A stretch of 64,000 nt of DNA from Sphingobacteriales bacterium 46-32 (GTDB taxonomy: Bacteria; Bacteroidota; Bacteroidia; Chitinophagales; Chitinophagaceae): contig MKTY01000020.1 of the NCBI GenBank assembly GCA_001898485.1, positions 1 to 64,000 of the forward strand, written 5' to 3'. Within the stretch, counting starts at the first letter, position 1, and every line of letters begins with the position of its first letter. Below are positions 15,749 through 34,665 of the stretch, one piece after another. The notes beneath the pieces were generated by a model that saw only the letters and a program-made list of their open reading frames with translations, made no database searches and had not been told where the DNA came from. The translations under genes were made by a program, and so were the position numbers.

Positions 15749-15970
15749 ATGAGTGCTTCTAAACTTCCAGATCGAACCAATTCAATTAAGCCTTACAGCA
15801 AAAAGGAATTAACGGTCATGTATAATGTAAGCAAAAAGACGATGACCAGATGGCTAAAGCCACATCTTCCGAAAATCGGCAAAAGAGAAGGTCGTTACTA
15901 CAACGTCAGACAAATTCAAATCATCTTTGATTTATTTGGCCTACCAGATTGCCTGGATAATGCAGCCTGA
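15749..15970 (+). CDS. Small HTH protein, copy 1
   Basis: This 73-residue protein shares a pattern with the protein at 16149: K-P-Y, then Y-N-V-S-K-K-T-M-T-R-W-L (a recognition-helix-like segment at about 29-40), G-K-R-E-G-R-Y-Y, and a closing F-G-L-P. The fold suggested is a small winged HTH of the MerR/excisionase type. It opens the long plus-strand island and probably regulates it. Two divergent copies in a row suggest an ancient duplication with distinct sites. There is no integrase nearby, so a true excisionase role is not supported. Confidence 0.65.
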   Translation: MSASKLPDRTNSIKPYSKKELTVMYNVSKKTMTRWLKPHLPKIGKREGRYYNVRQIQIIFDLFGLPDCLDNAA

Positions 15971-16036
15971 TTCTTATCCGTCTATAATTCACATGGTTTC
16001 ACGGAAAACACATTTTTCCTTTTGTGGGTATTCAAT

Positions 16037-16110
16037 GTCCAAATGATACCAAATGTGACCCAAACGAACCCAAAGTGGGACAGTGGGTCATTTGACCGAT
16101 AGTATGTTTG
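16037..16110 (+). promoter_or_regulatory. Operator-like repeats and promoter of the second HTH gene
   Basis: CCAAATG occurs at 16039-16045 and 16049-16055 (period 10). Two CCCA and two TGGG blocks then form nested inverted symmetry between about 16059 and 16087, and AAATGTGACCCA is mirrored by TGGGTCATTT. Directly downstream, TATGTTTG at 16103-16110 exactly matches the TAnnTTTG -7 consensus, 38 bp before the ATG at 16149. The arrangement looks like an operator overlapping the promoter of the island, perhaps bound by the HTH proteins beside it. Confidence 0.5.
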
Positions 16111-16148
16111 TACTCACAAGCGATAAGCAATAAAATTTTTCCGAACCT

Positions 16149-16412
16149 ATGGCAAAACATGAACCTAAAAAGTATTTCGATGAAAAAGGAAAACTTATCA
16201 TTAAGCCTTACCGGATCATTGACCTTGCGGCCATCTTCGATGTTAACCGGAAAACCATGCGCCGGTGGATGAATAATTTTCCCGGCGAGCTTGGCAAACG
16301 GGACGGCAAATATTTTTCCATCAACCAGGTTGAGTTTATGATCGCTCAATTCGGACTGCCCAGGAAGATAGAGATGACTATCACAGAAGGGCAACTAAAT
16401 AAAGCTGCCTGA
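16149..16412 (+). CDS. Small HTH protein, copy 2
   Basis: The 87-residue protein is a paralogue of the 73-residue protein upstream. It shares K-P-Y-R-I-I-D-L-A-A-I-F-D-V followed by K-T-M-R-R-W-M, G-K-R-D-G-K-Y-F and F-G-L-P. The N-terminus is longer and charged. The helix-turn-helix reading is based on pattern only. It is preceded by a strong-looking -7 box and an operator-like repeat cluster, and starts the near-continuous run of plus-strand genes to 34665, so it may control the island. Confidence 0.65.
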   Translation: MAKHEPKKYFDEKGKLIIKPYRIIDLAAIFDVNRKTMRRWMNNFPGELGKRDGKYFSINQVEFMIAQFGLPRKIEMTITEGQLNKAA

Positions 16413-16438
16413 TTTTAGAATCATCACAAACAGTAACT

Positions 16439-16627
16439 ATGAAAAGTACAGATAACACTTCCCAAAGCATTTTCCTGACTGGTTTTATACTGCTGGCAAA
16501 TCTTGACTTTACCGGGCTTCTGGAATACGGTCTGAAAGCTGCCATCGGCGGCGGTATCTGGCTCGCCTACAAATTGGTAGCAGATCAAATAGATCGCAGA
16601 AAAAGAAACAAGACCAGTCATGACTAA
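16439..16627 (+). CDS. Small membrane protein (62 aa)
   Basis: The protein has a short polar N-terminus, two hydrophobic stretches (about 10-22 and 30-46, the latter G-G-G-I-W-L-A-Y) and a basic tail (R-R-K-R-N-K). Its 3' end overlaps the next gene by 8 bp, which supports a real gene in an operon. It resembles small phage membrane or holin-like proteins in size and layout only; no family is recognised. Confidence 0.5.
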   Translation: MKSTDNTSQSIFLTGFILLANLDFTGLLEYGLKAAIGGGIWLAYKLVADQIDRRKRNKTSHD

Positions 16628-17096
16628 AAACATTCTGACCATTACACTCATCGGCGGCGGACTGATAGCTGGCTACAGCTATTATGTAAAGATGAGAAAG
16701 ACATCGGCAGAATTAGAGGTAGTCCCTGAAGCAAACATTCATGCAGTGAATTGGGACGGCATCATCATACGGCTTGATTTGTTATTGAAAAACCCTACAA
16801 AGGGGAGCTTCTCGATAAAGTTTCCCTTTGTTAAACTCACCTACAAAGGAACAACTGTAGGTAGTTCACAGGTGGTGAACCAGGATATTAAGATACCCGC
16901 TTATGGACAGGCAAAAATTGAAAAACTGTTGGTAAGCATTCCGATACTAAGCATTTTTTCTGTGTCCACTTCGATTCTTAAAGCGATACAGAACAAGGAG
17001 CAGGTAATGATTACGGCGACGATGAAGACAACAATTGATCTCGGAATGGTAACAGTTCCTTTTGAAGAAAATCATGAAGTGATACTCAAAAAATAA
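16620..17096 (+). CDS. Membrane-anchored LEA14/WHy-like protein
   Basis: The 158-residue protein has an N-terminal membrane anchor (about 5-22) followed by a single beta-sandwich-like domain. Its pattern (I-R-L-D-L-L-L-K-N-P-T near 50-60, then a strand run with I-P-A-Y-G) resembles the LEA14/WHy-type immunoglobulin-like fold. The stop overlaps the next start as TAATG, so translation is coupled with the transglutaminase-like protein. It likely faces the periplasm or a particle surface. Role unknown; similar anchored small beta domains recur in this island. Confidence 0.5.
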   Translation: MTKNILTITLIGGGLIAGYSYYVKMRKTSAELEVVPEANIHAVNWDGIIIRLDLLLKNPTKGSFSIKFPFVKLTYKGTTVGSSQVVNQDIKIPAYGQAKIEKLLVSIPILSIFSVSTSILKAIQNKEQVMITATMKTTIDLGMVTVPFEENHEVILKK

Positions 17097-18904
17097 TGGA
17101 AGCAAGAAAGAAGCGACATATCAGGCCGGGCAATGAATATGATCATTTGTTTCCATCGTCTCAAAACGATAATAAAACAATCAGGCGTAATGCGAATTTA
17201 GATCACACCCTTGATTTTATTCCGAAGGTAGTTCAGGAAACGATTGACCAGACAAAGCTGATAGCGCAAAGACTAAAAGGACGAACAAATTATGAAACAT
17301 GCAAAAATATCTGGCATTTTATATATGGTCATATCAACTATAAAAAAGATGAAGAAGGGTTTGAGCAAATACGCAGCCCGGCAAGAGCATGGCACGACAG
17401 AAAACAGGGGGTAGATTGTGATTGTTACTCGGTGTTTATCTCCAGCATCCTGACTAACCTGGGTATTCCTCATATCCTGCGGATCACCAAATATCACCGG
17501 GAATACTTTCAGCATATCTACCCCATAGTGCCAAATGATTCGAGGCATATTACGATTGATTGTGTAACTGACCAGTTTAATTACGAAGTACCCTTTAGAG
17601 AAAAAAAAGATTACCCTATGGATTTACAATATCTCAATGGCTTTGATGGCGACGGCCTGGCGGAGTTAGGCCGGATCATCGAGCGCAATATGCACGATAA
17701 TACGCTTGCGGGAAAGGCCAAGCGCAAAGCAAAGAAAGCCGCCAAAGCTGCGGCCAAAGCACAAGCGGCGAGTATGCCCGGCGCACCTGCGCCTAAGAAA
17801 AAGAAAGGCTTTTTCAAAAAAGTGCTGAACGTGGTGAACAAGATAAACCCGGCAACGGTGTTACTCCGAAATGGTGTGCTTGCCGCTATGAAACTGAATA
17901 TAAAAAACGTCGCCGCCAGGTTAAGGTGGAGCTATCTCACTGCCGAGCAAGCGGCGGCTAAAGGCATTGAAGCAGCCAAATATCAAAAGCTGCTCGCTAC
18001 CCGGCAGAAATTGGAAAACATCTTTTATGGTGCGGGAGGCAAGCCCGACAACCTTCGGAAGGCCATACTAAAAGGCAAAGGAAATAAGGATAAAGCCGTA
18101 AGCGGATTGGGAATGCTACCTATGGAAAGCTGGAGCGGGTACATGAATGAAAACACACCTCTCCAACAATTGCTTGGCCCAGAGATCTACTATTCCGAAA
18201 ATGTGGAAGGCATGGATGGCTTCAAGGGTTTTGGTGAACTTGGAGAACCGGTGACGCTTGCAAGTGTGGGTGCAGCAATGGGAGTAATAGCAGGAATTGT
18301 CGCTTCCTTAAAACAGATTGGAAACATTTTTAAAGGCAAGCAGCAGGGATCAGAAGATTTTGATGAAAGCCAAACCGATGCTCCTGAAAATAATGTGTCA
18401 GTGCCAGCAAACAGCGCAGCTATTCCTTCTGCAGCAACTAATCCCATTGTACCTACAAATATTTCGGCTGAAAATTTTAGTCCTTCATTACCTACTACTG
18501 AATCACCATCAATGTCAAATGATGCTTTGGTAAGAACTCCCAATAACGTCTCCACTGCATCAGCAAACAGAGAATTGATTACTGAAGATGAGTTTATTGA
18601 GGAAAAATCAGTTTCACCAGTTACTAATACTAACACTGCAAATACAAGCAGTAATAGCAGCGACAATACCGGTGGTGAAAAACAAAGTTTTTGGGATAAA
18701 AATAAAAAATGGATAAAGCCGGTAGCCATTGGCGTGGGCGGATTGACGGTGATTGCAATTGCTTACAACCTATCGAAAGGCTCAAAACATGAGAACAAGG
18801 CGTCACCAAAATCGCAAGGATTATCCGGTACGCCGCATAAACGAGGGAAAAAGAAAAAACATCACAACAAACATCAGCATCGAAAAGCAATAGCTCTCCT
18901 CTAA
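17096..18904 (+). CDS. Transglutaminase-like cysteine protein with C-terminal membrane segment
   Basis: Residues 50-175 of this 602-residue protein resemble the transglutaminase/cysteine protease fold: G-V-D-C-D-C-Y at 105-111 supplies a catalytic Cys (108 or 110), H140 lies in F-Q-H-I-Y-P, and D155 in I-T-I-D-C. A Lys/Ala-rich basic stretch (about 200-245) and a Gly-containing hydrophobic segment (about 380-400) follow. A long Ser/Thr/Asn/Pro-rich linker then leads to a transmembrane helix (about 542-562) and a His/Lys-rich tail. It may be a protease or cross-linking enzyme tethered to a membrane, for example processing or cross-linking structural proteins of the island. No exact family is recognised. 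Confidence 0.62.
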   Translation: MEARKKRHIRPGNEYDHLFPSSQNDNKTIRRNANLDHTLDFIPKVVQETIDQTKLIAQRLKGRTNYETCKNIWHFIYGHINYKKDEEGFEQIRSPARAWHDRKQGVDCDCYSVFISSILTNLGIPHILRITKYHREYFQHIYPIVPNDSRHITIDCVTDQFNYEVPFREKKDYPMDLQYLNGFDGDGLAELGRIIERNMHDNTLAGKAKRKAKKAAKAAAKAQAASMPGAPAPKKKKGFFKKVLNVVNKINPATVLLRNGVLAAMKLNIKNVAARLRWSYLTAEQAAAKGIEAAKYQKLLATRQKLENIFYGAGGKPDNLRKAILKGKGNKDKAVSGLGMLPMESWSGYMNENTPLQQLLGPEIYYSENVEGMDGFKGFGELGEPVTLASVGAAMGVIAGIVASLKQIGNIFKGKQQGSEDFDESQTDAPENNVSVPANSAAIPSAATNPIVPTNISAENFSPSLPTTESPSMSNDALVRTPNNVSTASANRELITEDEFIEEKSVSPVTNTNTANTSSNSSDNTGGEKQSFWDKNKKWIKPVAIGVGGLTVIAIAYNLSKGSKHENKASPKSQGLSGTPHKRGKKKKHHNKHQHRKAIALL

Positions 18905-18939
18905 CCCGAATCCATTAACTATTAAACCTTATTAATACT

Positions 18940-19533
18940 ATGTCAAAAAAGAAAAACCGATACCAGAAGAAAGCTAATAAGAAACACTTTCTTTCTGGTC
19001 TGAATGAAGGATTGCCAACAAAAGGCAATACTAAAAATACAGTGCTGGAAACCGGAAAAGATATTTTAATTGGCGTACTTGGTGGCGGCCTCATTGGTGC
19101 GGCTGTTGGAAAACCTTCCTTGCTGGTCGGTATCGCTACAACCGGTGTCGGACACTTTACCGGCAATAAGATCGTGCAGATTCTCGGCATCGGCATCATG
19201 GCAGCTAATGGCTTTCAGAAAGCAGGAACAGTAAGTGGCCTTGAAGGACTGGCCGGAGTAAAGGAAAGACTGCAAGCCTATAAAGAAAGCATGACCGAAA
19301 AGTTTTTCCTCGATAAAATATTAAAGAAAAAAGCGGCCGCCACTACAAGCGGTATTGGAGAGCTACAATACTTCACTTACAATGATCCGATGAACGGTCA
19401 CCTGGCTGCACTGGATGATATTGAACAACAGGTAGCCGAAAGTGCCCGACAGTTCCAGGGGCAATTAAGAGGTGAGGAAGAACTTTTGGGAGACGATTAT
19501 GAAGTAGGTGCGCTGGAAGACCGGTTGTACTGA
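18940..19533 (+). CDS. Gly-rich membrane protein of the island
   Basis: The 197-residue protein has a very basic N-terminus (about 1-20), two adjacent Gly-rich hydrophobic helices (about 42-62 and 66-90), and an acidic C-terminal third. The layout (basic face, glycine-zipper helices, acidic tail) is typical of small structural membrane proteins and is compatible with membrane remodelling or a virion membrane protein. It sits directly before the candidate capsid-like protein. I do not recognise a family. Confidence 0.45.
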   Translation: MSKKKNRYQKKANKKHFLSGLNEGLPTKGNTKNTVLETGKDILIGVLGGGLIGAAVGKPSLLVGIATTGVGHFTGNKIVQILGIGIMAANGFQKAGTVSGLEGLAGVKERLQAYKESMTEKFFLDKILKKKAAATTSGIGELQYFTYNDPMNGHLAALDDIEQQVAESARQFQGQLRGEEELLGDDYEVGALEDRLY

Positions 19534-19581
19534 TTCATAAAAAACTAAAACAAATTCATTAATCCATAAAACCCGAAAACT

Positions 19582-20301
19582 ATGTTAGGCTTACTCGATG
19601 GAATCGAAGAATACAATAATGCAGGTGCATTGATCGGCATCGAAGGTGTTGACGATGGCGAGCTGCTCGGCGCCTTAAAGCGAATGAACCCGATCAAAAG
19701 GCAGCGCACTGTAAACAAACTTTCCAATACCGGGTCTCCCAGCAGGGGATCAAGAGCGGAAATGGAAAAGTTTTTTGGCGAGCTGCCTGCTCATATCAAA
19801 GAAGGGTTGGCAAATTCATCCCTTCGCCTGGCGGATTCGACCATTTACTCGATCAAACCGGTTACCTCAAAAACTATCAAGCTGTTTGAAACGCAGGACG
19901 ACAAAGAGATTGGTCTGCGTAATATATCAAATGCCAAGTTGCCCAAAAATCAGGCATTCCTGGTAAGTGGTATCTATCTGCTAGCAGGAGTGTCTGCTGA
20001 TGGTACAAAAGACAAGATCATTGCTACCGAATTTAAAGGACTGGAAACTTTCAATGCCATCGCTAATGGTGAGTTCAACCTCAAGTCAAACAAAAAACAG
20101 ATCGTACCTGAGACATCGAACGCTGTATTTAAAACGGCAGCCTACCACCAGGTCCCGATTGGTTACTACAAGCTCGCCAATCCCCGGCTGATCGAAGATG
20201 ACATATTGATTGAAATGACCGTTGAACTCGGCTCAATGGATGGAGTGGCTGCCAATACTTACATCTTCGCCGGATTGCATGGTACAATCACAACTCCATA
20301 G
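19582..20301 (+). CDS. Candidate major structural (capsid-like) protein
   Basis: The 239-residue protein begins with a charged helical region (1-80) followed by about 160 residues of alternating beta strands ending in a Gly-rich strand (A-N-T-Y-I-F-A-G-L-H-G). It has no signal peptide or enzyme motif. The strand pattern, size and position among membrane, lysis and beta-rich proteins suggest a jelly-roll-like capsid protein, but this is inference: double jelly-roll capsids are often longer (about 250-400 residues). Other possibilities are a surface-layer or secreted structural protein. Confidence 0.4.
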   Translation: MLGLLDGIEEYNNAGALIGIEGVDDGELLGALKRMNPIKRQRTVNKLSNTGSPSRGSRAEMEKFFGELPAHIKEGLANSSLRLADSTIYSIKPVTSKTIKLFETQDDKEIGLRNISNAKLPKNQAFLVSGIYLLAGVSADGTKDKIIATEFKGLETFNAIANGEFNLKSNKKQIVPETSNAVFKTAAYHQVPIGYYKLANPRLIEDDILIEMTVELGSMDGVAANTYIFAGLHGTITTP

Positions 20302-20313
20302 TCACCCGAGTTA

Positions 20314-20853
20314 ATGTTTTTGATTAAATACAAGTGGGCTGCTCTTGCAGCAGCCCTCCTTGTTCCAACACTGGTACTGGCGGGTGTAAAAGGCTCGCAA
20401 AAAAGAGGCAGAGCATTAAAAAATCTAAAAGCATTTCTGCTAATGATACAGTATGCAGAGGGAACGATTGGAATGAATGCTTACCGGATGTTATACGGTG
20501 GCAGCTTGTTCAATGATTATTCAAGGCATCCTAATATAGCCATTACCAAATGGGGTGTTACAAGTACCGCAGCAGGGGCTTACCAGTTTTTGTATAGCAC
20601 ATGGGCAATAGTACAAAGGGAGTTGCGGTTGCCGGATTTTAGCCCGGTATCACAGGATAAGGCAGCAATAGAACTGATAAGAAAAAAAGAGGCATTAACA
20701 GATGTATTGGCAGGCAATATAGTGCAGGCGATTTATAAGTGCAGAAAAGTATGGGCTTCATTTCCGGGTGCAGGCTATGGCCAAAGCGAAAAGAGCTTGC
20801 AAAGTCTTTTGTTACTCTATATAAAAGCAGGAGGACAACTATTAACAGCTTAA
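20314..20853 (+). CDS. GH104-like lytic transglycosylase/lysozyme with N-terminal anchor
   Basis: The 179-residue protein has a hydrophobic N-terminus (about 3-25), resembling a signal-anchor-release endolysin, and a lambda-endolysin-like catalytic domain. Features are Q-Y-A-E-G-T with Glu49 as likely catalytic acid, S-T-A-A-G-A-Y-Q-F-L at 84-93, and D-F-S-P-V-S-Q-D-K-A-A-I at 109-120. Such enzymes cleave the MurNAc-GlcNAc bond of peptidoglycan. It lies 12 bp after the capsid-like gene and is the first of several wall enzymes in the island, pointing to lysis or local wall opening. Confidence 0.8.
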   Translation: MFLIKYKWAALAAALLVPTLVLAGVKGSQKRGRALKNLKAFLLMIQYAEGTIGMNAYRMLYGGSLFNDYSRHPNIAITKWGVTSTAAGAYQFLYSTWAIVQRELRLPDFSPVSQDKAAIELIRKKEALTDVLAGNIVQAIYKCRKVWASFPGAGYGQSEKSLQSLLLLYIKAGGQLLTA

Positions 20854-20863
20854 CTAAAAGCAG

Positions 20864-21250
20864 ATGGCATCAAAAAGAATTAAAAAAAGATTTGACATAG
20901 ATGTTACGGAACAAAATGGGATTCACTCCAAGACCTTTGAACTGGACAAAACTATTGTTAAGGTGCATGGTTTGCTATTTACGGGTGACCGAGACGATCT
21001 ATTATATTATCGTGGTTCTGGTAAGGTAGAGATTAACCGGCAAGAGATATTCCCGGAAAGCTATGAAACCAAGCTACTAATGACCGGGTTGAATGTATCT
21101 CCCAATGATCGGTATTATAATCTCGGAGGCATCGAGCCAGGCAATGGAAAGGTGAAGGTAGAATATAAGGACACGAATACGACGGTGATTGATTTTGTTG
21201 CGTACCGTGTTACTCTTTATCTCGACTGTGAAATCAATGAAGCGGCATGA
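20864..21250 (+). CDS. Beta-rich small structural protein (128 aa)
   Basis: Apart from a basic N-terminus (K-R-I-K-K-R), the sequence is a series of short strands and turns with many Asp/Gly/Asn loops, consistent with a beta-sandwich. The stop overlaps the next start by 4 bp. No catalytic motif or secretion signal is visible. Together with the next two genes it forms a run of three overlapping beta-rich proteins, which could be minor capsid, spike or base proteins. Not a recognised family. Confidence 0.45.
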   Translation: MASKRIKKRFDIDVTEQNGIHSKTFELDKTIVKVHGLLFTGDRDDLLYYRGSGKVEINRQEIFPESYETKLLMTGLNVSPNDRYYNLGGIEPGNGKVKVEYKDTNTTVIDFVAYRVTLYLDCEINEAA

Positions 21251-21741
21251 TGAAAGAAGAAGTCATATTGCAGGTGATCAAGATTGCCAGTATTGGAGAT
21301 AGAGTTCATTTCCACGTTCAACTACCGGGCGATGCACGAAGGATCATTGGTTTGGAATACGGTGTGCTTGGAAAAGAAGGTGTCCCCTATGATATAGGCA
21401 TGAGGGAAGTTGGAGAAACTGGACCTGATCCATTTATGATAGTTCAACCTAATAAGAGCATTGGCAGGCTTAGCCTACAAAGTCCTGGCTCCGAAAGTGT
21501 CTTTTTTGAGAATACGCTTTTGGACAATCGTAACCAGGTATTAAACGAGGGAATCAGCTCGATTTCGTTACAGCCTTTTGAATGGACGCATAGCCGTAAA
21601 AGAGAAGAAATTAGTTTTTCAGTTGATAACAACACCCGGTTTATTGAAGGATTTTTCCAGGACAGCTTTGGAGTGGATGAATATGAAAGTCTGCAATATA
21701 ATCTCCACTTGTATTTATGGATTGAAAAATGTAACACATGA
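21247..21741 (+). CDS. Beta-rich small structural protein (164 aa)
   Basis: The protein is predicted by eye to be almost entirely beta: repeated V-x-L/I alternation, S-I-S-L-Q-P, and a final L-H-L-Y-L-W-I strand. It overlaps both neighbours by 4 bp, so the three genes are translationally coupled and probably act in fixed stoichiometry. No signal peptide, metal site or enzyme motif is seen. A particle component is the best inference; the family is unknown. Confidence 0.45.
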   Translation: MMKEEVILQVIKIASIGDRVHFHVQLPGDARRIIGLEYGVLGKEGVPYDIGMREVGETGPDPFMIVQPNKSIGRLSLQSPGSESVFFENTLLDNRNQVLNEGISSISLQPFEWTHSRKREEISFSVDNNTRFIEGFFQDSFGVDEYESLQYNLHLYLWIEKCNT

Positions 21742-22070
21742 CTGAAGAACTGGCTTTGGAGTATATCTCAAAACGTGCTTGCGAGCTGGGCTATGGAAAC
21801 GATTATACTATCCGGGTGCGGCATTTTGTGTTGCAACCACAGGAATCAAGAAAGATAAATAGTCATGATCAGTTCTTTGTATTGCTCGAACCTTATTGTG
21901 AGATGAGGATTGAAAGTGCAACTGCTTTATTTGATATGAGCGAAAATCAGATTAATGAATTGCAATATGAACATAAAGGCGAAATCACGCTGACCAATCA
22001 ATCCATATTCGTCACTCATGCCCGGTTTATCCAGGTGATACCTAAATTCTGTAAAAAGCCATGCCCGTAA
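21738..22070 (+). CDS. Small hypothetical protein (110 aa) in the structural cluster
   Basis: The 110-residue protein has an N-terminal helix followed by strands, and ends in a Cys/Pro-containing K-F-C-K-K-P-C-P tail. It overlaps the upstream gene by 4 bp and the downstream gene by 10 bp. The beta-rich middle and tight coupling match its two upstream neighbours, so it is probably part of the same assembly. No recognised family and no catalytic motif. Confidence 0.42.
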   Translation: MTEELALEYISKRACELGYGNDYTIRVRHFVLQPQESRKINSHDQFFVLLEPYCEMRIESATALFDMSENQINELQYEHKGEITLTNQSIFVTHARFIQVIPKFCKKPCP

Positions 22071-22867
22071 CAAACGATAAATATGACCAACTGAAGATTG
22101 ATAAGCTCAAGCATTTCCTGCAAGAGATGGCGGGGAAGGGACAGCCACGGCCTTTTGAGATTTTCGTGGACAATCTAAAAGTTGTAACAAAAACAGAAGA
22201 CCCAAAGGAGTTTGATACTTATGAGTATTACATGAATGAGGACACTGAGAAGATCCGCATATTGATTTACAATTCCGCTGCTACGCCTCGCAACGATCAA
22301 TACTGCTTTTACGTGCAACAGAATAAGCCGGAAAAAACACTGAATGGCCTCGGTGATTTGGATGGTATCATTCAGGAAAAGCTAAATGCCCGTGATAAGG
22401 AATATGAGCTAAACCGGTTGAAGGAAGAACTTGCAGAGACAAAGCAGCAGCTCGAAGAATCGGAAGAATATGCCGAAGGATTAGAAAGACAACTGGAAGC
22501 AGCGAAAAGCAATAAATATAAATTAGGAAAGCTCGACCTGGTAGAGCTTGGTGGAGCGGTGTTGGAAAAGCTGGCAGTAAAGAATGCGGGAGCATTAGAA
22601 AAAATAGGTCTGGCCGGATTGGTAACGCCCGGCAATGCTAATGAAGCAACAACCATAGAAGAAACCAATGCCAGCTTTCAGAAGAAAACCGATGGCACAT
22701 CCGATTTGAAGCCAGAGCATCTTGAATACATTCCTGTATTGCAACAACTGGATGCCGTTTTTGAAAGACCGCAATTGGAAATGGTCATGAAAATAATTGG
22801 TCGGTTTTCTGAAGAACCGGCACACTTGCAAACCGTTGCTGAATTATTAAATATTCAAACTACATAA
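22061..22867 (+). CDS. Coiled-coil protein (268 aa)
   Basis: The N-terminal third is globular. Residues about 110-150 form a Glu/Lys/Leu-rich coiled coil (E-L-A-E-T-K-Q-Q-L-E-E-S-E-E), followed by a hydrophobic Gly/Ala/Leu segment (about 160-190) that is amphipathic rather than clearly transmembrane, and a helical C-terminus. It has no known motif. It may be a scaffold or internal structural protein of the island's putative particle; the 10-bp overlap with the upstream gene supports joint expression. Confidence 0.45.
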   Translation: MPVTNDKYDQLKIDKLKHFLQEMAGKGQPRPFEIFVDNLKVVTKTEDPKEFDTYEYYMNEDTEKIRILIYNSAATPRNDQYCFYVQQNKPEKTLNGLGDLDGIIQEKLNARDKEYELNRLKEELAETKQQLEESEEYAEGLERQLEAAKSNKYKLGKLDLVELGGAVLEKLAVKNAGALEKIGLAGLVTPGNANEATTIEETNASFQKKTDGTSDLKPEHLEYIPVLQQLDAVFERPQLEMVMKIIGRFSEEPAHLQTVAELLNIQTT

Positions 22868-22871: not shown

Positions 22872-23054
22872 ATGAATAAATACCAGTATGAAATCTCTAT
22901 CGAAGCAAAATCGGAAAGTGAAGCGGAAGCTAAAATGAAAGCCTTAACTGTACTGGCCTCCAGGCTTTCTGAAAAGGAGTTGACCAAGCTGGCGCATGTT
23001 ATCAAGCATGATCCTGTTAAGACGGCGCTTGCAAAAAAATACTTAGGTGTATAA
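22872..23054 (+). CDS. Small helical protein (60 aa)
   Basis: The 60-residue protein begins with a strand and then contains two charged helices (E-A-E-A-K-M-K-A-L and S-E-K-E-L-T-K-L-A). It starts 4 bp after the preceding stop, consistent with a genuine operon member. The composition resembles phage tail-assembly or scaffold accessory peptides, but nothing specific can be assigned. Confidence 0.4.
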   Translation: MNKYQYEISIEAKSESEAEAKMKALTVLASRLSEKELTKLAHVIKHDPVKTALAKKYLGV

Positions 23055-23078: not shown

Positions 23079-23783
23079 ATGAACACAGAAACTTCCACTT
23101 ATGAGCAAGACCAGTTTACCCTCGAAGAAAAGATCAAATATGGCATCCTCGGTCTGATGGTGATTGGTGGAAGTTTCTTTATCGGCAGGGCCATTATACG
23201 AAAAGCAAGAGCAACAAGTGAAGAAAAGAAAACTTATGAGGAAGGGAATGCAGCTACCTATGCGAAGCAAATAAAGATGGCTTTTGAAAATGATATGTGG
23301 TGGGGATGGGGAACAGATGAAGAAGCATTGCGCAGGGCGATCCGGGCAATACCAAGCAAAGACGAGTTCAGGAAAGTGATCAACTCTTATCAAAAGCTAT
23401 ATGCCAGAAGCCTGATGGCAGATATGCAAAGCGACCTAACGACAAGCGAATACAATGAAATGCTCGCCATTATTGCTACAAAGCCGGAAAAGGGAACAAT
23501 GCCTGTACAAGTGCAGCTATCGCCTCATCAATACCAGTCATGGGCGAAAAGACTGAGGTCGGCTTTTGAAGTAAGTACGTGGGGCTTTCTTCCCTATGGT
23601 ACAGATGAAGATGCGATTAAAGCAGTTTTTATGGAAATGCCAACACAGGCAGCTTTTTTTGAAACTGCTAAGGCATATAATCAATTGTATGGTGATGATC
23701 TGTTGAGTGATCTAAAAGGCGAGTTGGAATATTGGGAATGGGGACAAATGATTTCTATTATCGAAAACAAACCGAAAGCATAA
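23079..23783 (+). CDS. Membrane-anchored protein with two annexin-like repeats
   Basis: The 234-residue protein has an N-terminal transmembrane helix (about 20-40) and two repeats that resemble annexin repeats. The first (about 62-133) contains G-W-G-T-D-E-E-A-L, like the annexin type II calcium loop G-x-G-T-D-E, and Y-Q-K-L-Y-A-R-S-L. The second (about 155-228) has Y-G-T-D-E-D-A-I and Y-N-Q-L-Y-G-D-D-L. Eukaryotic annexins have four such repeats and bind acidic membranes with calcium; bacterial annexin-like repeats are known but rare. A role in membrane binding or curvature during particle assembly is inferred. Confidence 0.65.
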   Translation: MNTETSTYEQDQFTLEEKIKYGILGLMVIGGSFFIGRAIIRKARATSEEKKTYEEGNAATYAKQIKMAFENDMWWGWGTDEEALRRAIRAIPSKDEFRKVINSYQKLYARSLMADMQSDLTTSEYNEMLAIIATKPEKGTMPVQVQLSPHQYQSWAKRLRSAFEVSTWGFLPYGTDEDAIKAVFMEMPTQAAFFETAKAYNQLYGDDLLSDLKGELEYWEWGQMISIIENKPKA

Positions 23784-23839
23784 TCCGATATTATGAAACG
23801 CAAGTTCCATCTGGCCAAAATAAAATAAATGATATTCAG

Positions 23840-26614: not shown

Positions 26615-26633
26615 CCCTTTTAAACCTTATTCT

Positions 26634-27328: not shown

Positions 27329-27499
27329 ATGAAGGAAAAAACAATTGTATCAGCAAGCACATTGTTTGTGTCTCTTTTGACATATTGGTATGCAAGATCT
27401 GCGGGTAAGGATGCAGTACCCTATGTTATGTTCGGAGGCTTTATCGGTTCTATCATTGGCGAAAGCATTGCAGAAAGTTTAAACAAGCAAGAATCATGA
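27329..27499 (+). CDS. Small membrane protein (56 aa)
   Basis: ATG 27329 opens a 56-codon frame ending at TGA 27497-27499, which overlaps the next ATG (ATGA). The peptide has two hydrophobic segments separated by a short polar turn (S-A-G-K-D-A) and a charged end (L-N-K-Q-E-S). It starts 5 bp after the spanin-like gene. Small two-helix proteins of this sort recur in the island; this could be a second holin or antiholin or a structural membrane protein. Confidence 0.5.
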   Translation: MKEKTIVSASTLFVSLLTYWYARSAGKDAVPYVMFGGFIGSIIGESIAESLNKQES

Positions 27500-27768
27500 G
27501 CTACCAGATCAACGATACGGGAGCCAGCCTGCGCTTTACCAGTGGGGATGGCTTTTTCTTTGTAATGAAGCATCACATAAAAGCCATCCGGTATGTGAGA
27601 GATGATATGATAAAGGTTGATACGGGCTGTTGCTTTGACAGCTTGTTCATTCATGCAAGTCAGGTAACAATACCAGACAATACAGGAGCAAATAATCTGG
27701 CAGATATACTCAACGGCTGGACAACCCAATTTTTGCAGGGTTACCCGGAACCGGGTCCGAGTGATTAA
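27496..27768 (+). CDS. Small beta-rich protein, tandem copy 1
   Basis: The 90-residue protein begins M-S-Y-Q-I-N-D-T-G-A-S-L-R-F and contains M-K-H-H-I-K-A, an R-D-D-M-I-K-V-D-T-G-C-C-F stretch and an ending L-Q-G-Y-P-E-P-G-P. It is nearly identical in plan to the next protein. The beta-rich N-terminus and conserved Cys-Cys suggest a small structural protein, possibly a minor particle component. It overlaps the preceding gene by 4 bp. Not a recognised family. Confidence 0.6.
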   Translation: MSYQINDTGASLRFTSGDGFFFVMKHHIKAIRYVRDDMIKVDTGCCFDSLFIHASQVTIPDNTGANNLADILNGWTTQFLQGYPEPGPSD

Positions 27769-27826
27769 TGTGAAATGGTTACAGAAGAAATATAGAACTC
27801 TTTACAGAAAGTATAAACAGCAAAAC

Positions 27827-28099
27827 ATGAGTTACCAGATCACCGATACCGGAGCCAGTTTACGCTTTGCCAGTGGAGACGGATTTTTCTTTCTCATGAA
27901 GCACCATATAAAAGCCGTTCGGTTTGTACGGGACGATATGATAAAGATTGATACAGGTTGTTGCTTTGGTAGTGTGTTCATCCATGCTGCGCAGGTGGTA
28001 GTTCCCGTAAACACTGGTGCGGATAATTTGGCTCAAATACTAAATGGGTGGATTACAAACTTTTTGCAGGGTTATCCTGATCCCGGCCCGGTTGAATAA
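27827..28099 (+). CDS. Small beta-rich protein, tandem copy 2
   Basis: I start at M-S-Y-Q (ATG 27827), matching the start of copy 1, rather than at an upstream alternative start that overlaps copy 1; this gives 90 residues. The protein is about 75% identical to copy 1 with conserved M-K-H-H-I-K-A, I-D-T-G-C-C-F and Y-P-D-P-G-P. Most differences are conservative, indicating that both copies are maintained. The stop overlaps the start of the large helicase gene (TAATG). Confidence 0.6.
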   Translation: MSYQITDTGASLRFASGDGFFFLMKHHIKAVRFVRDDMIKIDTGCCFGSVFIHAAQVVVPVNTGADNLAQILNGWITNFLQGYPDPGPVE

Positions 28100-31000
28100 T
28101 GAAAAGTAGAACAGTCCATACCAATAGTTCCGATTTTTCGGGTAAGGCATTTGTGGAAGAAGTGCTGTCAGAACTCGTAGCCGGAAAAAAGCATAATAAA
28201 ATTTCTATTGAGAAATTGGCTGCTGCTTATGGTATCACCGATAAAACCGAGGTCAAAGAACTTACCGAACTCGCTATTGTTAACAGGGCAAGGGAGTTGG
28301 CCCATAGTCAAGGAACTATCAAGGACAGATTTGATAAGATTGTAGAGTTATATTATTCACAGGTTAATCTTTCGCACCGCACTTCGCAAAGTATCTTATT
28401 GCAGCAATATTCAACACCTGCGCCTATCGGATATTTGGCAGGTGTTTTTTGCGGTATTCATAAACCGTTTGTCAGAAGTCTTTATTTTGAACCCTCTGCC
28501 GGTAACGGCCTTCTTACTATTGCAGGTAACCCGTTCAATTTTATCGTCAACGAGATTGATCCCACACGAAACAGGAATTTGCAAACGCAGCAGTTTTCAA
28601 AAATTTTAAAAGAAGACGCAACCCGGCCCTTCAATGAGTTTTCAAAAGTCTTTGATGCAGTGCTGACCAATCCTCCATTTGGGATAAGCGAAAAGGAGAT
28701 TCTTTATGATACTTTCCGGATGAGGTCATTAGAGCATGTAATGGCACTGCGAGCATTGGATTGCATGAAAGATTCGGGCAAAGCGGCCATTATTATCGGT
28801 GGCCATACAAGATGGGACGATAAAGGAAGAATACAAGCGGGTAAGCAACGCATCTTCTTTAATTACTTGTATAGCCGGTACAACGTTGCTGCCGTTATCA
28901 ATATTGATGGCCACAAACTCTATTCAAGACAGGGGACCGCTTTTGATGTTCGCCTGATTTTAATTAATGGGCGAAAGCCAGTACCTATTGGCAATGCCCC
29001 GGTATATAATCCCGACACAGATGGGGAAGTAAAAACGTTTGATGACCTGTTTGAGCGGGTTATGGATGCAATGGAAACAAACTTTAATGAAACCGACACT
29101 ATGAAAATATTAGAGTTAGAAGCCGAAGCATTGGCGCTGGAGCTTGAATTATTAAAATCCCTTGATGGCTTGCCAGCGGTTCCGGGTAACATAAATAAAA
29201 CGATATATTGGCACTATACTTATTTCAAAAAGCAAAAGCCTGCCAGGCATAACCAGCTTTTCCTGTTAAAGAATGAATCTACCGGCGAATATGAAACCTT
29301 CGACCTCGATGCTGAGCGATTGGTATATATATTTTCGCTGCCACTGGTAAAGTTTGCCATCATTAACGGAAAAAAAGTACACGGTATTTCGATCACGCCA
29401 GAAAAGCTGGCTGCCATCAAAAAGCAGTTACAGGAAACCGGTTACCAGGTATTGGTTGAAGAAGATGCCAATTCGTTTAAGGGGTTGGAAAATGAATCCG
29501 ACCTCGGTGCACCTTATGAACCAGCATCCGAAGCCTGTACTGTTCTAAATACTCAAGTGCCGGACAGCATGGCTTTTGAAACTTTGGAAGCCGTCAAACT
29601 GGTAAAAAAAGAAGTCGGTGGCAACATGGATAATTTTGTACGTCACCGTTTGAAATATCCAAACAAAGACGCTCTTTGTAAAGTGCTTTCCGCTGAACAG
29701 ATTGATGCGGTAGCAATGGCGATCTATAACATTGAAGCAAGAAGCCAGGGAATGATTATCGGCGATCAGACTGGCATTGGTAAGGGTCGCATCGCAGCAT
29801 CCATGATTCGTTATGCAGTAATGCAGGGATTAAAGCCGGTGTTCCTGACCGAAAAGGCAAATCTTTTCTCTGATATATACCGTGACCTGTCTGCGATAGG
29901 TTCAGGTCACTTAAAGCCTTTTATTGTCAACAGCCGGGAAAGCAAGACGGATATTAAAGATGAAGACGGCGAAGTGATTTACCAGGCGCCGCCGCCCGGC
30001 GAGCAGCAAGATATTATTGCCTCCCGCCAGTTGCCTGCCGGGTATGATTTTGTGTTAGGCACTTATACGCAATTCAATTCTGCCGAAAAGAAACCGGAAA
30101 AGCCAAACTTTCTTCGTGCCATCGCACCCGACAATATTTTCATACTTGATGAAGCGCATAACTCCAGTGGCTCATCTAATACGGGCGAATTTATGCAAGG
30201 GGTAATCCGGGATACCAAAGGAGTTGTGTTTCTATCTGCCACTTTTGCCAAGCGACCGGATAATATGCCTATTTATGCTATGAAAACCTCTATATCTGAT
30301 TGCAACATGACAAGGGATGACTTGGTGGATGCCATCACCAAAGGCGGTGTTGCCATGCAAGAGGTTTTATCATCTCAACTTGTAGCGGAGGGGCAAATGA
30401 TGCGGCGGGAAAGAAGTTTTGAAGGTGTAGAGGTAAACTATATTTCCCTTGATGATAAAGCAGAGGAACATCAAGCAATCTCCGATAATATCACGAAAAT
30501 CCTGCGGGACATTATCGCTTTTCAGGGAACCTATGTCAATAATATGGTAGAGGATTTGGACAAAATCGCAGTAGCCGAGGGAAAGGAAGTGGAAATAAGA
30601 GAAGGCACTTCACAGGCAGGAGTGGATAACCTGCCTTATTTCTCCAAAGTCTTCCAGGTTATTAATCAAATGCTATTTTCTCTTAAAGCCGAAGCGGTGG
30701 CAGAAAGAACTATTGCCCGGTTAAAGGAAGGGAAGAAACCCGTGATCGCTTTTGCTTCCACAATGGGCAGCTTTATTGAGAGCATGGACAATGATCAGGG
30801 AATGCCGGTTGCAGATGGTGATACGATTAATACAGATTTTGCCGAAGTGTTACGAAGGGGTTTAAACGGAGTTATGCGCTACACGGTGAAGGATATTGAC
30901 GGAAACCCGGTGCATGAGCATTTCGCTATAAACGATCTGTCAGTCGAAGGTCAAAGAGAATACCAACGTATCATGGAGAGGATTAAGACAGTTACGACGG

Positions 31001-33153
31001 GTATCAGCATTTCACCCATAGATGTTATTATCAAAAAAATTAAAGAAGCAGGCTATAGTGTAGCCGAAGTGACAGGGCGCAAATATGAAGTGCAGGTAAA
31101 TCTAAAAACCGGTAAAGGAATTGTGCTGTCACGTAAGCGTATTAATACCAATGATGCTTTCCGGCAGTTCAATAATAACGAAGTGGACGTGTTGATGATA
31201 AATCAATCAGGCAGCACCGGCGCATCAGCCCACGCTATCCCTACTGCCAAAGTTCCTGCTAACCAGGTACAGCAAAGAGTAATGATCGTCCTGCAGGCGG
31301 AACTCGATATTTCTACCGAAGTACAAAAGCGAGGGCGAATTAATCGTACCGGGCAAATCCAAAGGCCTATTTATGATTATGTGACATCTGCGATACCTGC
31401 GGAAAAGCGATTAATGATGATGCTCCAAAAGAAATTAAAGTCTTTGGACGCCAATACCACTTCCAATCAAAAGCAATCCACCAAAATTTTAGACGTACCG
31501 GATTTTTTAAACAAATACGGCGATAAAATCGTGCGTGACTATCTAATGGAAAATAAAGATGTAAATGATCTGCTGGACGATCCGCTGCATCTCAAGGATT
31601 CAAAATCCGATGGTGGCAGCAGTGATGCTTTTGCTCTGGAAGATGCAGCGCACCGGGTATCTGGTAGAGTTGCGGTATTGTCAACGAAGATGCAGCAGGA
31701 ATTTTATAATGAAATATCAGAGCGTTATAATGACTTTGTTGAATACCTAAAGCAGATTGGTGAGTATGATCTGGAAGTAGAAGCGATGAACCTGGAAGCG
31801 GAAACTACTGCAAGCCGGGTGATAAAAATGGGCAAAGGAAGTGATAGTGCATTTGGTGATGATAGTATCCTTGAAACCGTAAAAGCGAATGTTCTGAAAA
31901 AACCTTTCAGCAGGAATGAGCTTGCTAATCTCTTGCAGGAGGCACTCAAAGGGAAAGACCCAAAAGAAGTTCAGGAGGAGACTTTAAAAGATTATAAAGT
32001 CGGCATAGAGGAACGGCTGGCGAAGGAAGTAAGCGAAGTACATGGCAAGTATGATCTTTTAAAAATGAGCATTCCTGCTGAAAAGAGGATACAAAAGATT
32101 CTGGAAACAGAAGGGCAGTCTGCGTGGCAACAGTTGATCGCTGAAAGGGAAAAAGAGCTGGACGAAGCAAGGGAGGCGCAACTTCAAAACCTGGAAAAGA
32201 CCTTCAATAATAGACGTGATTATCTTGTAAAGTCTATGAATTTCTTTTATCCTGGTCGCCTGTTAAGCTACCCGGTCGAAACCTATGAAGGAGGGAACGA
32301 GCTTGTTCCGGCAGTATTCCTGGGAATAGTTATTGATAAAAAGAAAAAGAATCCTTATGCGCCTTCAGCTATGAAGCTCCGGTTTGCCATTGCGAATAGC
32401 AGTAAATACCTCGCTATGCCTGCCTCGTACAATGAAGAGATCATGGCGATCATTGGTAGCAGCATGGACATAGAGCAGCCGGATATGGGGGGCCTGTTAT
32501 CGCAGTGGGAGCAATACACCAAACAAAATAATGTTGATCGCAAGACCCGGCATATTATCACCGGCAATCTCCTGCAAGCCTTTAGCGATTTTAAAGGCAA
32601 ACTGGTTAGCTATACTACGATCAATAAAGAGGTCAAAAAAGGAATCTTGTTACCAGAGAACTGGAATCCCGGTGAACAGGTGCAAGATAAAGTTGTAGTT
32701 CCCATTCTGAAAGCACTCCCGCTAATTAAATCCATTACGCAAAATGGCCATATAGTTACCAATAATGGCATTTCCTTTTTCCGGTCGGGAGAACATTATA
32801 GAATCATAGTCGCAGCTTCAAGAATAAAAGGAGGTGGCATTTACCTTGATAAGCAAATACTGGAGCTGGTTGAGAATAACAATTTTGAAAAGACTTCTGA
32901 TAAGATGGTAGCTATGTTACCAGAAAAGAGTATTGATAAGCTGGTAGAACTATTACAAATAAATCATAGCGCATCTGTCACTATACATTCATCACAAATG
33001 AAGGATATAGAAAAGGCGACTACAAGGTACAGTAACCGGAGGAAGATTGAACCACCTGATGAGGAAAAAGAGGAAGGTCAATCCGATAATGTGCGCATAC
33101 TTGAACTGGAAGCTGAGGCTCTTGCCCTGGAACTTGAATTATTAGCTGCTTAA
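28099..33153 (+). CDS. N6-methyltransferase plus strawberry-notch-like helicase (DarB-like)
   Basis: This 1684-residue protein has an N-terminal helical region, then an adenine methyltransferase domain (motif I F-E-P-S-A-G-N-G near 130-137, motif IV N-P-P-F at about 191-194). At about 554 begins a superfamily 2 helicase of strawberry-notch type (G-D-Q-T-G-I-G-K-G-R Walker A, L-D-E-A-H near 683, and S-G-S-T-G-A and Q-K-R-G-R-I-N-R-T-G motifs). A long coiled C-terminus follows. The architecture resembles P1 DarB and related phage/plasmid proteins that protect or process incoming DNA. A 16-residue motif (I-L-E-L-E-A-E-A-L-A...) occurs after the methyltransferase (about 337) and again at the very C-terminus with different codons. 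Confidence 0.88.
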   Translation: MKSRTVHTNSSDFSGKAFVEEVLSELVAGKKHNKISIEKLAAAYGITDKTEVKELTELAIVNRARELAHSQGTIKDRFDKIVELYYSQVNLSHRTSQSILLQQYSTPAPIGYLAGVFCGIHKPFVRSLYFEPSAGNGLLTIAGNPFNFIVNEIDPTRNRNLQTQQFSKILKEDATRPFNEFSKVFDAVLTNPPFGISEKEILYDTFRMRSLEHVMALRALDCMKDSGKAAIIIGGHTRWDDKGRIQAGKQRIFFNYLYSRYNVAAVINIDGHKLYSRQGTAFDVRLILINGRKPVPIGNAPVYNPDTDGEVKTFDDLFERVMDAMETNFNETDTMKILELEAEALALELELLKSLDGLPAVPGNINKTIYWHYTYFKKQKPARHNQLFLLKNESTGEYETFDLDAERLVYIFSLPLVKFAIINGKKVHGISITPEKLAAIKKQLQETGYQVLVEEDANSFKGLENESDLGAPYEPASEACTVLNTQVPDSMAFETLEAVKLVKKEVGGNMDNFVRHRLKYPNKDALCKVLSAEQIDAVAMAIYNIEARSQGMIIGDQTGIGKGRIAASMIRYAVMQGLKPVFLTEKANLFSDIYRDLSAIGSGHLKPFIVNSRESKTDIKDEDGEVIYQAPPPGEQQDIIASRQLPAGYDFVLGTYTQFNSAEKKPEKPNFLRAIAPDNIFILDEAHNSSGSSNTGEFMQGVIRDTKGVVFLSATFAKRPDNMPIYAMKTSISDCNMTRDDLVDAITKGGVAMQEVLSSQLVAEGQMMRRERSFEGVEVNYISLDDKAEEHQAISDNITKILRDIIAFQGTYVNNMVEDLDKIAVAEGKEVEIREGTSQAGVDNLPYFSKVFQVINQMLFSLKAEAVAERTIARLKEGKKPVIAFASTMGSFIESMDNDQGMPVADGDTINTDFAEVLRRGLNGVMRYTVKDIDGNPVHEHFAINDLSVEGQREYQRIMERIKTVTTGISISPIDVIIKKIKEAGYSVAEVTGRKYEVQVNLKTGKGIVLSRKRINTNDAFRQFNNNEVDVLMINQSGSTGASAHAIPTAKVPANQVQQRVMIVLQAELDISTEVQKRGRINRTGQIQRPIYDYVTSAIPAEKRLMMMLQKKLKSLDANTTSNQKQSTKILDVPDFLNKYGDKIVRDYLMENKDVNDLLDDPLHLKDSKSDGGSSDAFALEDAAHRVSGRVAVLSTKMQQEFYNEISERYNDFVEYLKQIGEYDLEVEAMNLEAETTASRVIKMGKGSDSAFGDDSILETVKANVLKKPFSRNELANLLQEALKGKDPKEVQEETLKDYKVGIEERLAKEVSEVHGKYDLLKMSIPAEKRIQKILETEGQSAWQQLIAEREKELDEAREAQLQNLEKTFNNRRDYLVKSMNFFYPGRLLSYPVETYEGGNELVPAVFLGIVIDKKKKNPYAPSAMKLRFAIANSSKYLAMPASYNEEIMAIIGSSMDIEQPDMGGLLSQWEQYTKQNNVDRKTRHIITGNLLQAFSDFKGKLVSYTTINKEVKKGILLPENWNPGEQVQDKVVVPILKALPLIKSITQNGHIVTNNGISFFRSGEHYRIIVAASRIKGGGIYLDKQILELVENNNFEKTSDKMVAMLPEKSIDKLVELLQINHSASVTIHSSQMKDIEKATTRYSNRRKIEPPDEEKEEGQSDNVRILELEAEALALELELLAA

Positions 33154-33165
33154 ACTTTTAATCCT

Positions 33166-34665
33166 ATGATAGCTACTAACAATTATTTTAAGGAAATAGA
33201 AAAGATTGATTTTTCTGAACTGCCCGAAGCATTCAGGAAAGGGCATGAGTTTTTAGAAAAAGCTACTGACAGAGGAAATAATTGGACTTCTTATCAGTCA
33301 AGCGATACAATTAAAAAAACAATTGACATTTATCTTGCCAAACTCAACGAATTTGTTAGCAACAATAAGAAGGCAGATAACAAGCAACGTAAGAAAATCC
33401 GTCAGCAACAGTCCAGCAGAGAAATCATACAAGAGGCATTAATAAAGCAAAGCATCGTTAATCCAGATGGTTCATCTAAAAAGAAAGCCAGGCAATCCGC
33501 ATCAAAAGAAAATGAAGTTCAGCCTACATTAGTAGAACGAATACCGGAAGAACTACGTTTTATCAAACGGTTTGTAAATCTCAATGGCAAATCCAAAACC
33601 AAAGAGGAACTATTGCGGTTTATTAATTCGCTCCAAAAGGCAATTCTGGAAAAAAGAATCCGGAAAACTTCACCTTATGCGGAACAAATAAAATCCATTC
33701 AGGACAAGTTGGTGGAGACTTATAACAACATGAAGGCTAAGATTACGATTCAACTAAAGCCTGGAACCTATGACGAGTTCAAAAAATTAACCGGTGAAGA
33801 AAAAGTAATGCCTTCTATCAATTTTATTAAGAGATATATTGGCATGAATGGTAAGACCGGCATGAAAGAAAAAGCAAAACAATTGCTTCAGCAAATCAAC
33901 AGGGCTATGGATAAGGGAAAGGTAGCTGATAACGATCCCTACATTACCGAAATACAGGAACTCAAAAAGAATCTGAAAGTATTTACAACTGATAAAGTTC
34001 AAAAAACTTTAGAGATTGAAAAAGCTGCCTTGAATGGGTTGGAGGGAATTTTAGGCTGTGCCTGTCAGCATCTGAATGGTTTTGATGGGAAACCCTCTAT
34101 CATGAATAGTATGGACTTTGCCAATATGGAGTTTGCAACAATAGGACTAAAAGGAAAATGGTATAAACTGATTGGCGATCCGTCTAGCAACTTTACAGCA
34201 ATGGTTTTTGGAAAGCCGAAGATGGGTAAGTCTTATTTGTGCATTGATTTTGCCGGTTACCTGGCACGTCATCATGGCAAAGTATTGTATGTGGCAAAGG
34301 AAGAGGGACTTGATTATACATTGCAACAGAAGTTGAATGACAAAGATGTGGCACACCCTAACTTGTTTGTAGCATCTATTCTTCCGGATAGTCTTGCTCA
34401 ATATGATTTTATTTTTTTGGACAGTGTAAATAAGTTAGGGTTAGCGCCGGAAGATCTGAACCGGTTGAAACACTTGAATCCAACCAAATCCTTCATCTTC
34501 ATTTTTCAATCCACAAAAGAAGGCAAGTTTAGAGGTGCTAATACTTTCCAGCATGACGTGGATGTGGTGATCGAAATACCGGAAAAAGGAAAAGCAATAC
34601 AGATGGGAAGGTTTAACCAAGGTGGAGAGATGGAGATTTTTGAATCTTATTCGCATGCTGCGTAA
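33166..34665 (+). CDS. RadA-like P-loop ATPase with tandem N-terminal repeats
   Basis: The N-terminal 300 residues of this 499-residue protein are basic and helical and contain two similar units (about 127-190 and 220-275), each with F-I-K-R-[FY] then N-G-K and a helix pair. The C-terminal 180 residues form a RecA/RadA-type ATPase: G-K-P-K-M-G-K-S Walker A (about 348-355), V-L-Y-V-A-K-E-E-G, I-F-L-D-S-V-N-K-L Walker B, and F-Q-S-T-K-E-G-K-F-R-G, H-D-V-D and R-F-N-Q-G-G motifs. It is the last gene of the island, 12 bp after the helicase. It could serve DNA replication, recombination or packaging; it is not of the FtsK/HerA packaging type seen in PRD1-like viruses. Confidence 0.75.
   Translation: MIATNNYFKEIEKIDFSELPEAFRKGHEFLEKATDRGNNWTSYQSSDTIKKTIDIYLAKLNEFVSNNKKADNKQRKKIRQQQSSREIIQEALIKQSIVNPDGSSKKKARQSASKENEVQPTLVERIPEELRFIKRFVNLNGKSKTKEELLRFINSLQKAILEKRIRKTSPYAEQIKSIQDKLVETYNNMKAKITIQLKPGTYDEFKKLTGEEKVMPSINFIKRYIGMNGKTGMKEKAKQLLQQINRAMDKGKVADNDPYITEIQELKKNLKVFTTDKVQKTLEIEKAALNGLEGILGCACQHLNGFDGKPSIMNSMDFANMEFATIGLKGKWYKLIGDPSSNFTAMVFGKPKMGKSYLCIDFAGYLARHHGKVLYVAKEEGLDYTLQQKLNDKDVAHPNLFVASILPDSLAQYDFIFLDSVNKLGLAPEDLNRLKHLNPTKSFIFIFQSTKEGKFRGANTFQHDVDVVIEIPEKGKAIQMGRFNQGGEMEIFESYSHAA

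Follow-up and report, generated by a model that had tools for sequence, protein, structure and literature searches.

The question raised by this locus is what kind of machinery is encoded by 24 co-oriented open reading frames on the plus strand at 15749-34665 of the window (the whole 64,000-nucleotide stretch of DNA that was analysed), among which membrane-anchored proteins, wall-acting enzymes and a capsid-like protein are found together. An earlier note, made from the sequence alone, had read them as possibly a tailless virus lineage, a satellite, or a domesticated particle or wall-opening machine, and the first of these readings draws support from the predicted capsid fold, the lysis genes and the mobility of related elements. 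We consider it likely that the stretch is the late module, for particle building and lysis, of a DNA virus of the Bacteroidota that is temperate and tailless and has a single-jelly-roll capsid; it probably represents a family of bacterial viruses, tailless and perhaps membrane-containing, that has not been described before.

The general description given in the earlier note, of about 24 plus-strand and often overlapping genes, was accurate, with eight neighbouring gene pairs overlapping by 1-10 bp, while its count of at least nine membrane-anchored proteins lies at the upper end of the eight to nine indicated by a hydrophobic-segment scan. Profile scans against Pfam and PHROGs covered 20 of the module proteins. 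As the note had anticipated, none of these was identified as a portal, a tail protein or the large subunit of a terminase, nor was any match to an HK97 capsid found, a content that does not fit the Caudoviricetes. Matches to PHROG tail and small terminase families, all with E>0.003, were dismissed as weak and not credible. Two domains had been overlooked: a two-repeat annexin (23079-23783) and a transglutaminase-like N-terminus (17096-18904). The lack of an integrase that the note reported is true of the window copy, whereas relatives do carry recombinases.

At the left edge, the two HTH regulators that had been claimed correspond to HTH1 (15749-15970), a DUF4248-like DNA-binding protein with a weak Pfam match (DUF4248, 1.1e-3) that occupies the same place in relatives, and HTH2 (16149-16412), a small protein with weak HTH matches whose position is also kept. 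The plasmid pPP10, described below, has an annotated DUF4248 gene as well, and in many relatives (G005, G066, G072, G266b and G302, where G numbers denote genomes) HTH2 is preceded by a conserved protein of 180-195 aa, with no recognised family, that is absent from the window copy. There follow mem62 (16439-16627), a conserved small membrane protein with one hydrophobic segment, and a probably membrane-anchored protein with an LEA_2/VirB8-like fold (16620-17096; LEA_2 at 9.1e-5, under the gathering score). TGase602 (17096-18904) joins the transglutaminase-like N-terminus (weak DUF553 match, 0.016), by its sequence a candidate protease or cross-linker, to a basic, glycine-rich, TM-containing C-terminus, and g197 (18940-19533), glycine-rich and carrying GLEGL motifs, is a candidate membrane-associated protein judged by conserved order and motif count. 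Next lie CAP239 (19582-20301), the predicted major capsid protein, a GH104-type endolysin with an N-terminal anchor (20314-20853; PHROG_90, 6.4e-43) and b128 (20864-21250), a second predicted jelly-roll protein. The beta-rich b164 (21247-21741) evolves faster and varies more in length than any other protein of the set (22-49% identity to homologues of 65-314 aa, and 401 aa at the same place on pPP10) and is a candidate receptor-binding or vertex protein. It is followed by three proteins kept in relatives: b110 (21738-22070), a small, beta-rich structural candidate of conserved order; cc268 (22061-22867), with coiled-coil-type matches and likewise conserved in order; and the small s60 (22872-23054), which is 47-93% identical at the same place.

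The annexin (23079-23783) is predicted to be membrane-anchored (TM 22-40) and matches the Pfam annexin family at 1.3e-8 and PDB annexins to 3e-14. It overlaps the reading frame of PGB359 (23732-24811), a membrane-anchored protein, the real start of which probably lies downstream of 23732; its peptidoglycan-binding role, proposed earlier, is weakly supported by a match to PHROG_1493 at 2.1e-9. The lysis set that had been claimed was recovered with the GH104 enzyme, two Amidase_2 proteins (24827-25225, Pfam 9.6e-8; 25258-25728, Pfam 2.7e-16 and PHROG_822 1.1e-48) and a protein with a C-terminal TM segment (25731-26399; PHROG_3000, 3.5e-37, and an endolysin PHROG, 2.1e-12), for which the label L,D-transpeptidase-like is that of the earlier reader. 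Adjoining these are a holin-like small membrane protein (26399-26614), assigned from one strong hydrophobic segment and its place within the lysis set, and a spanin-like protein (26568-27323) in which a hydrophobic segment (32-50) precedes a coiled coil detected by coiled-coil matches. The small tandem paralogues d90 (27496-27768) and d112 (27761-28099), taken from the ORF list and conserved in order, lead to the two large genes of the right end, which had also been correctly named: an adenine methyltransferase joined to a strawberry-notch SNF2-type helicase (28099-33153; Helicase_C_4 9e-24, AAA_34 3e-21), resembling the DarB dyad, and a RadA/KaiC-like ATPase with a helical N-terminal part (33166-34665; PHROG_6891 ATPase 3.5e-22, AAA_24 1.2e-4).

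A GLEGL/GLDGI-type motif is five to six times commoner than in residue shuffles in TGase602, g197 and CAP239, and also in cc268 and PGB359, statistics that are overstated since the homologues are not independent; most other module proteins lack the enrichment. In CAP239 the motifs fall mostly within the disordered N-terminus, and they could be sites of maturation cleavage or scaffold binding.

The viral reading depends most heavily on CAP239, the most conserved protein of the set, for which no family in Pfam, PHROG or NCBIfam was found. An AlphaFold model built from 17 homologues is of medium confidence (mean pLDDT 74.7) with jelly-roll blocks mostly at 80-93; the N-terminal 56 residues are mostly disordered and a single jelly roll extends from about residue 80 to 239, rather than the two domains per chain of PM2, FLiP and PRD1. 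Because a sequence-profile search against solved structures gave no match, the fold assignment is one of structure comparison. In Foldseek against the PDB, vertical jelly-roll capsid proteins lead, with EhV-201 (6.4e-6) and SPV1 VP4 (1.1e-4) accompanied by PBCV-1, SGIV, PRD1 and HCIV-1 among the top matches. The best VIA alignment is also to SPV1 VP4 (6oj0_A; 146 residues, 3.4 A) with a Z score of 9.3, which is modestly above the 7-8 stated to be typical for models without a clear match, and the runners-up are viral capsids at Z 6-8 interspersed with the cellular jelly-roll protein PHM at about 7. For b128 the jelly roll is modelled with high confidence (pLDDT 93) and VIA scores are 8.9 for PHM, 8.3 for HHIV-2 and 8.0 for an SPV1 chain; jelly rolls thus occur among cellular as well as viral matches of both proteins. 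We predict that CAP239, identified only as capsid-like in the earlier note, is a single vertical jelly-roll major capsid protein, and b128 is a candidate penton or second capsid protein. Between the window copy and a second copy in this genome (on contig C12, denoted G000:C12), CAP239 shows 92% amino-acid identity with dN 0.065 and dS 2.85, a dN/dS of about 0.02 that signifies strong purifying selection. At one locus (L025, 10006-11375, in G072) a single element carries two tandem CAP239 paralogues, which are 68% and 52% identical to the protein of the window.

Relatives of CAP239 are patchily distributed, being present in 16 of 296 genomes of the same family and three of 395 genomes of a phylum sample. 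A scan of GTDB genomes yielded 178 confirmed relatives, often with two or more copies per genome, and the best 80 of these, which were examined, are nearly all titled Bacteroidota. Since this gene set recurs with its order unchanged in more than 80 loci, essentially all of those inspected, the gene order is far beyond chance, and the genes are intact in nearly all copies. A distant clade (G171, G266a, G027 and G198) shares the transglutaminase-like protein (the counterpart of TGase602), the capsid, the methylase-helicase and the ATPase at 25-60% identity. In relatives, a repressor of the XRE-ImmA type (HTH_3 and Peptidase_M78) lies at the left edge of the module. Named cultured carriers include Flaviaesturariibacter aridisoli, Puia dinghuensis, Longitalea luteola and Persicobacter psychrovividus. 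The earlier impression that the set matches no known phage is borne out by the absence of CAP239 from 50,697 phage records. Among the 2.9 million contigs of IMG/VR, CAP239 matched two, both resembling proviruses inside host sequence; b128 matched the same two contigs and the distant capsids matched none of the viral contigs. No description of the gene set was found in the literature searched, from which subscription journals and preprints were largely excluded.

The module is mobile, judging from its relatives. A large serine recombinase gene lies just downstream of the RadA-like gene in G005, G066 and G072, and upstream in divergent orientation in G171, G266a and G302, while a tyrosine integrase is encoded at the right end in G085 and in the C12 copy. 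These recombinase-linked relatives are found at the 3' ends of at least eight tRNA or tmRNA genes, including tmRNA (G171) and the tRNA genes for Val (G266a), Ser-GCT and Leu-CAA (both G302), Leu-GAG (the C12 copy), Arg-CCG (G005 and G027), Ser-TGA (G066) and Phe (G198). The first G302 element lies between two exact 22-bp copies of the tRNA-Ser 3' end that are separated by 42.3 kb, and a further copy follows 0.3 kb beyond. In the same way, exact 22-bp copies of the tRNA-Leu(GAG) 3' end flank the C12 copy at C12:109 and C12:60336, a distance of 60.2 kb, beside the tyrosine integrase; temperate integrating elements are therefore represented among the relatives by recombinase and att repeats together. 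No long direct repeats were seen around G005, G066, G198 and G027 in the stretches fetched. The tmRNA gene of the sister species G266 carries no element, in contrast to that of G171, and this supports, but does not prove, an insertion in the latter, where the far flank gives a short, weak match at about 60 kb and no clean excision boundary.

Movement between species is also evident from three loci (L087, L088 and L092) whose sequences agree at 94-95% of positions across about 14 kb (15.9 kb when a less similar left part is counted), with unrelated flanks beyond. Identity between the corresponding hosts in the fusA region is only 76-81%, which implies recent transfer. The strict vertical conservation that the earlier note set against a viral origin is thus contradicted by att repeats, varied tRNA sites and near-identity across species. 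The extent proposed there needs revision: the 24-gene stretch is real, but its 19 kb amount to the conserved late part of an element that is longer, measuring 42-60 kb where both ends are defined.

For the window copy itself the left end is out of view, as the contig starts at base 1 of the window. No recombinase was recognised among the window ORFs, the window contains no tRNA gene, and a search for tRNA-end patterns detected no att site. To the left of the module lie a two-component pair and genes for a thioredoxin-like protein, SusC, SusD and AraC, collinear with the left of the C12 copy. The thioredoxin-like/SusC/SusD/AraC block (7104-15114) precedes the module in three elements, those of the window, C12 and G085, and may be either cargo or a hitch-hiking host block. 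To the right are metal-related genes and defence genes, Lamassu LmuA/LmuB (40691-43530; E to 4e-204) and a HerA and DUF4297 pair (43736-46721), which are probably cargo of the same island. The fusA homology of relatives begins exactly at 51554, where the GC content also rises, and from this we infer that the foreign stretch probably spans about 1-51.5 kb. The EF-G gene at this point (51308-53695) has about 82 initial codons with no counterpart in relatives and is possibly a fusion at the island edge.

In the C12 copy the methylase-helicase is replaced by an AAA_5 ATPase, a DUF7192-like protein and other genes, an exchange of modules that occupies about 41760-46620 of the C12 record, with d112 on one side and the RadA-like gene on the other, and the methylase-helicase is therefore accessory and not essential to the family. 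No packaging ATPase of the FtsK-HerA type was recognised in the 20 module proteins, the only P-loops being those of the SNF2-type and RadA-type proteins, and the integrated elements that were inspected contained no recognisable replication gene. A packaging role was weighed for the HerA protein at 43736-45484 and rejected, as it pairs with DUF4297 in defence and lies outside the conserved set.

A related module is also found in plasmid form. The complete, circular, 53,207-bp plasmid pPP10 (NZ_AP025302) of Persicobacter psychrovividus shares the module order with the window, having a TGase C-terminus, g197-like, capsid and b128-like proteins, a coiled-coil protein, annexin, methylase, helicase, ATPase and amidase. 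It differs in its capsid, of about 33% identity, in its Rep3 initiators and ParAB, in structural genes annotated only as hypothetical, and in the splitting of methylase from helicase and of the RadA-like gene in two; it is typed as non-mobilizable. A parallel exists in the tailless single-jelly-roll virus SNJ1, which is the previously described plasmid pHH205, and temperate members of the Helvetiavirae are known as plasmids (PMC12642351).

Among known viruses, the Portogloboviridae (SPV1) resemble the module in the single vertical jelly roll of the major capsid protein VP4, a likeness to CAP239 of fold only, seen in a medium-confidence model and with no sequence similarity shown. SPV1 likewise has a second jelly-roll protein and no recognised FtsK-HerA packaging ATPase, and it possesses an inner lipid layer (PMC8459092, PMC8812541). 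Virions of the family are icosahedral, with an inner membrane and a coiled nucleoprotein. It differs in its hyperthermophilic archaeal host (Sulfolobales), its 20-kb circular genome and a presumably non-lytic cycle, whereas the named loci examined here are from Bacteroidota, the integrated elements with both ends defined measure 42-60 kb, and a large lysis set, annexin and methylase-helicase are present together with integration at tRNA genes. The Helvetiavirae, comprising Simuloviridae (SNJ1), Sphaerolipoviridae (SH1, HCIV-1, HHIV-2) and Matsushitaviridae (P23-77), are also tailless with single jelly-roll capsids, and their capsids match CAP239 and b128 structurally at Z 6-8, but they have small genomes and encode an FtsK-HerA-type packaging ATPase of the kind not recognised in the module. 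The group of FLiP and Cellulophaga phi48:2 shares taillessness and Bacteroidota hosts, and FLiP contains lipid and lacks a packaging ATPase (PMC5894146); they differ in having a double jelly roll per chain, as opposed to one in CAP239, and ssDNA rolling-circle replication. The protein at 28099-33153 is comparable to P1 DarB and to polyvalent methylase-helicases in linking an adenine methylase to an SNF2-type (here strawberry-notch) ATPase, and DarB of P1 is a component of the virion head that acts in cis to protect DNA (PMC5512222). The dyad is a shared accessory and not a marker of a virus family, and it also occurs, at 35% identity, in the Bacteroides phage BS-TP4, for which a portal is annotated.

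Several other explanations have to be weighed. The module may be virus-derived and particle-making without being autonomous, as a helper-dependent satellite or as a particle akin to a gene transfer agent, carrying DNA of the host or of the element. The failure to recognise a packaging ATPase or replication gene, the big non-viral cargo of metal efflux and restriction systems and the near absence from IMG/VR would all suit such an origin, but the structural and lysis set is complete and under purifying selection, relatives have their own integrase and att sites, pPP10 is a replicon in its own right and no helper signature was seen, so that we judge it unlikely. A capsid-free island or conjugative element, in which the jelly-roll proteins, together with the wall enzymes, make up a transfer machine across the envelope, appears quite improbable: TraG (TIGR03783), the conjugation ATPase of the Bacteroidota, was not found in G302 and, in the present genome, occurs only on contigs C9 and C18 and not on C12 or the window contig C20, pPP10 is typed as non-mobilizable and the best CAP239 matches are capsids. 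Consistent with such a machine are the numerous membrane-anchored and wall-acting proteins, the weak VirB8-like match at 16620-17096 and the occurrence of methylase-helicase and RadA domains in Bacteroidetes plasmids and conjugative elements (PMC5512222).

Intact genes in nearly all copies and the low dN/dS of CAP239 make it very improbable that these are decayed provirus remnants that spread long ago and were retained for their cargo, despite the window copy having no visible integrase and the C12 copy no methylase-helicase. Least credible is a vertically inherited chromosomal envelope system of the Bacteroidota; it would explain why the genes are found in host chromosomes and not in virus collections, but the patchy distribution, several copies per genome and differing tRNA sites oppose it, and att repeats and cross-species near-identity contradict it. 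Several findings weigh against the tailless-virus reading itself, which we nevertheless prefer: no virion, excised circle or free genome was seen, the two IMG/VR contigs, the only ones matched, being provirus-like; neither an FtsK-HerA packaging ATPase in the module nor a replication gene in the integrated elements inspected was recognised; the CAP239 model is of medium confidence, has no sequence-level match to a solved structure and shares its fold with cellular proteins such as PHM; and the window copy shows no recombinase.

As a tailless temperate virus, the element would be held in lysogeny by its repressor (of the XRE-ImmA, or HTH_3 and M78, type in relatives), and derepression would be followed by excision or by replication as a circle or plasmid. 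CAP239 would then form hexameric capsomers and b128 possibly pentameric ones, in a shell built over an internal membrane to which the annexin and further anchored proteins would give its shape; a membrane in the particle is perhaps to be expected from the annexin, the large number of TM proteins and the family to which the fold belongs. For the loading of DNA, the RadA-like ATPase is the sole conserved candidate in the module. This ATPase and the methylase-helicase, whose domains are elsewhere known from proteins that enter along with DNA (PMC5512222), may travel with the DNA against restriction or aid loading. Holin, spanin, amidases and the GH104 enzyme would breach the wall of the host on release and that of the recipient on entry, where the DarB-like dyad would protect incoming DNA from restriction before re-integration at a tRNA gene delivers metal, restriction and defence genes.

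To our knowledge, the tailless bacterial viruses with a single jelly roll that have been described come mainly from Thermus, and capsids like those of portogloboviruses have been found in archaea only. Relative to the known viruses of this kind, the Bacteroidota host, the lack of a visible FtsK-HerA enzyme, the annexin, tRNA integration and large cargo would be new. The broadest proposal, to which we give an even chance, is of a phylum-wide family of temperate, tailless single-jelly-roll viruses, the first bacterial fold relatives of portogloboviruses, lacking the usual packaging ATPase, with annexin in the virion membrane, persisting as tRNA proviruses or plasmids and carrying a cargo of 15-30 kb, with metal, restriction and defence genes, from one species to another. 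The presence of carriers among named cultured strains leaves the question open to direct test. If such a bacterial lineage proves common, it would bear on the origin of vertical jelly-roll capsids and their packaging; it would also account for a class of large Bacteroidota cargo islands, provide a biological setting for some bacterial annexins, and constitute a virus group that phage databases have almost wholly missed.
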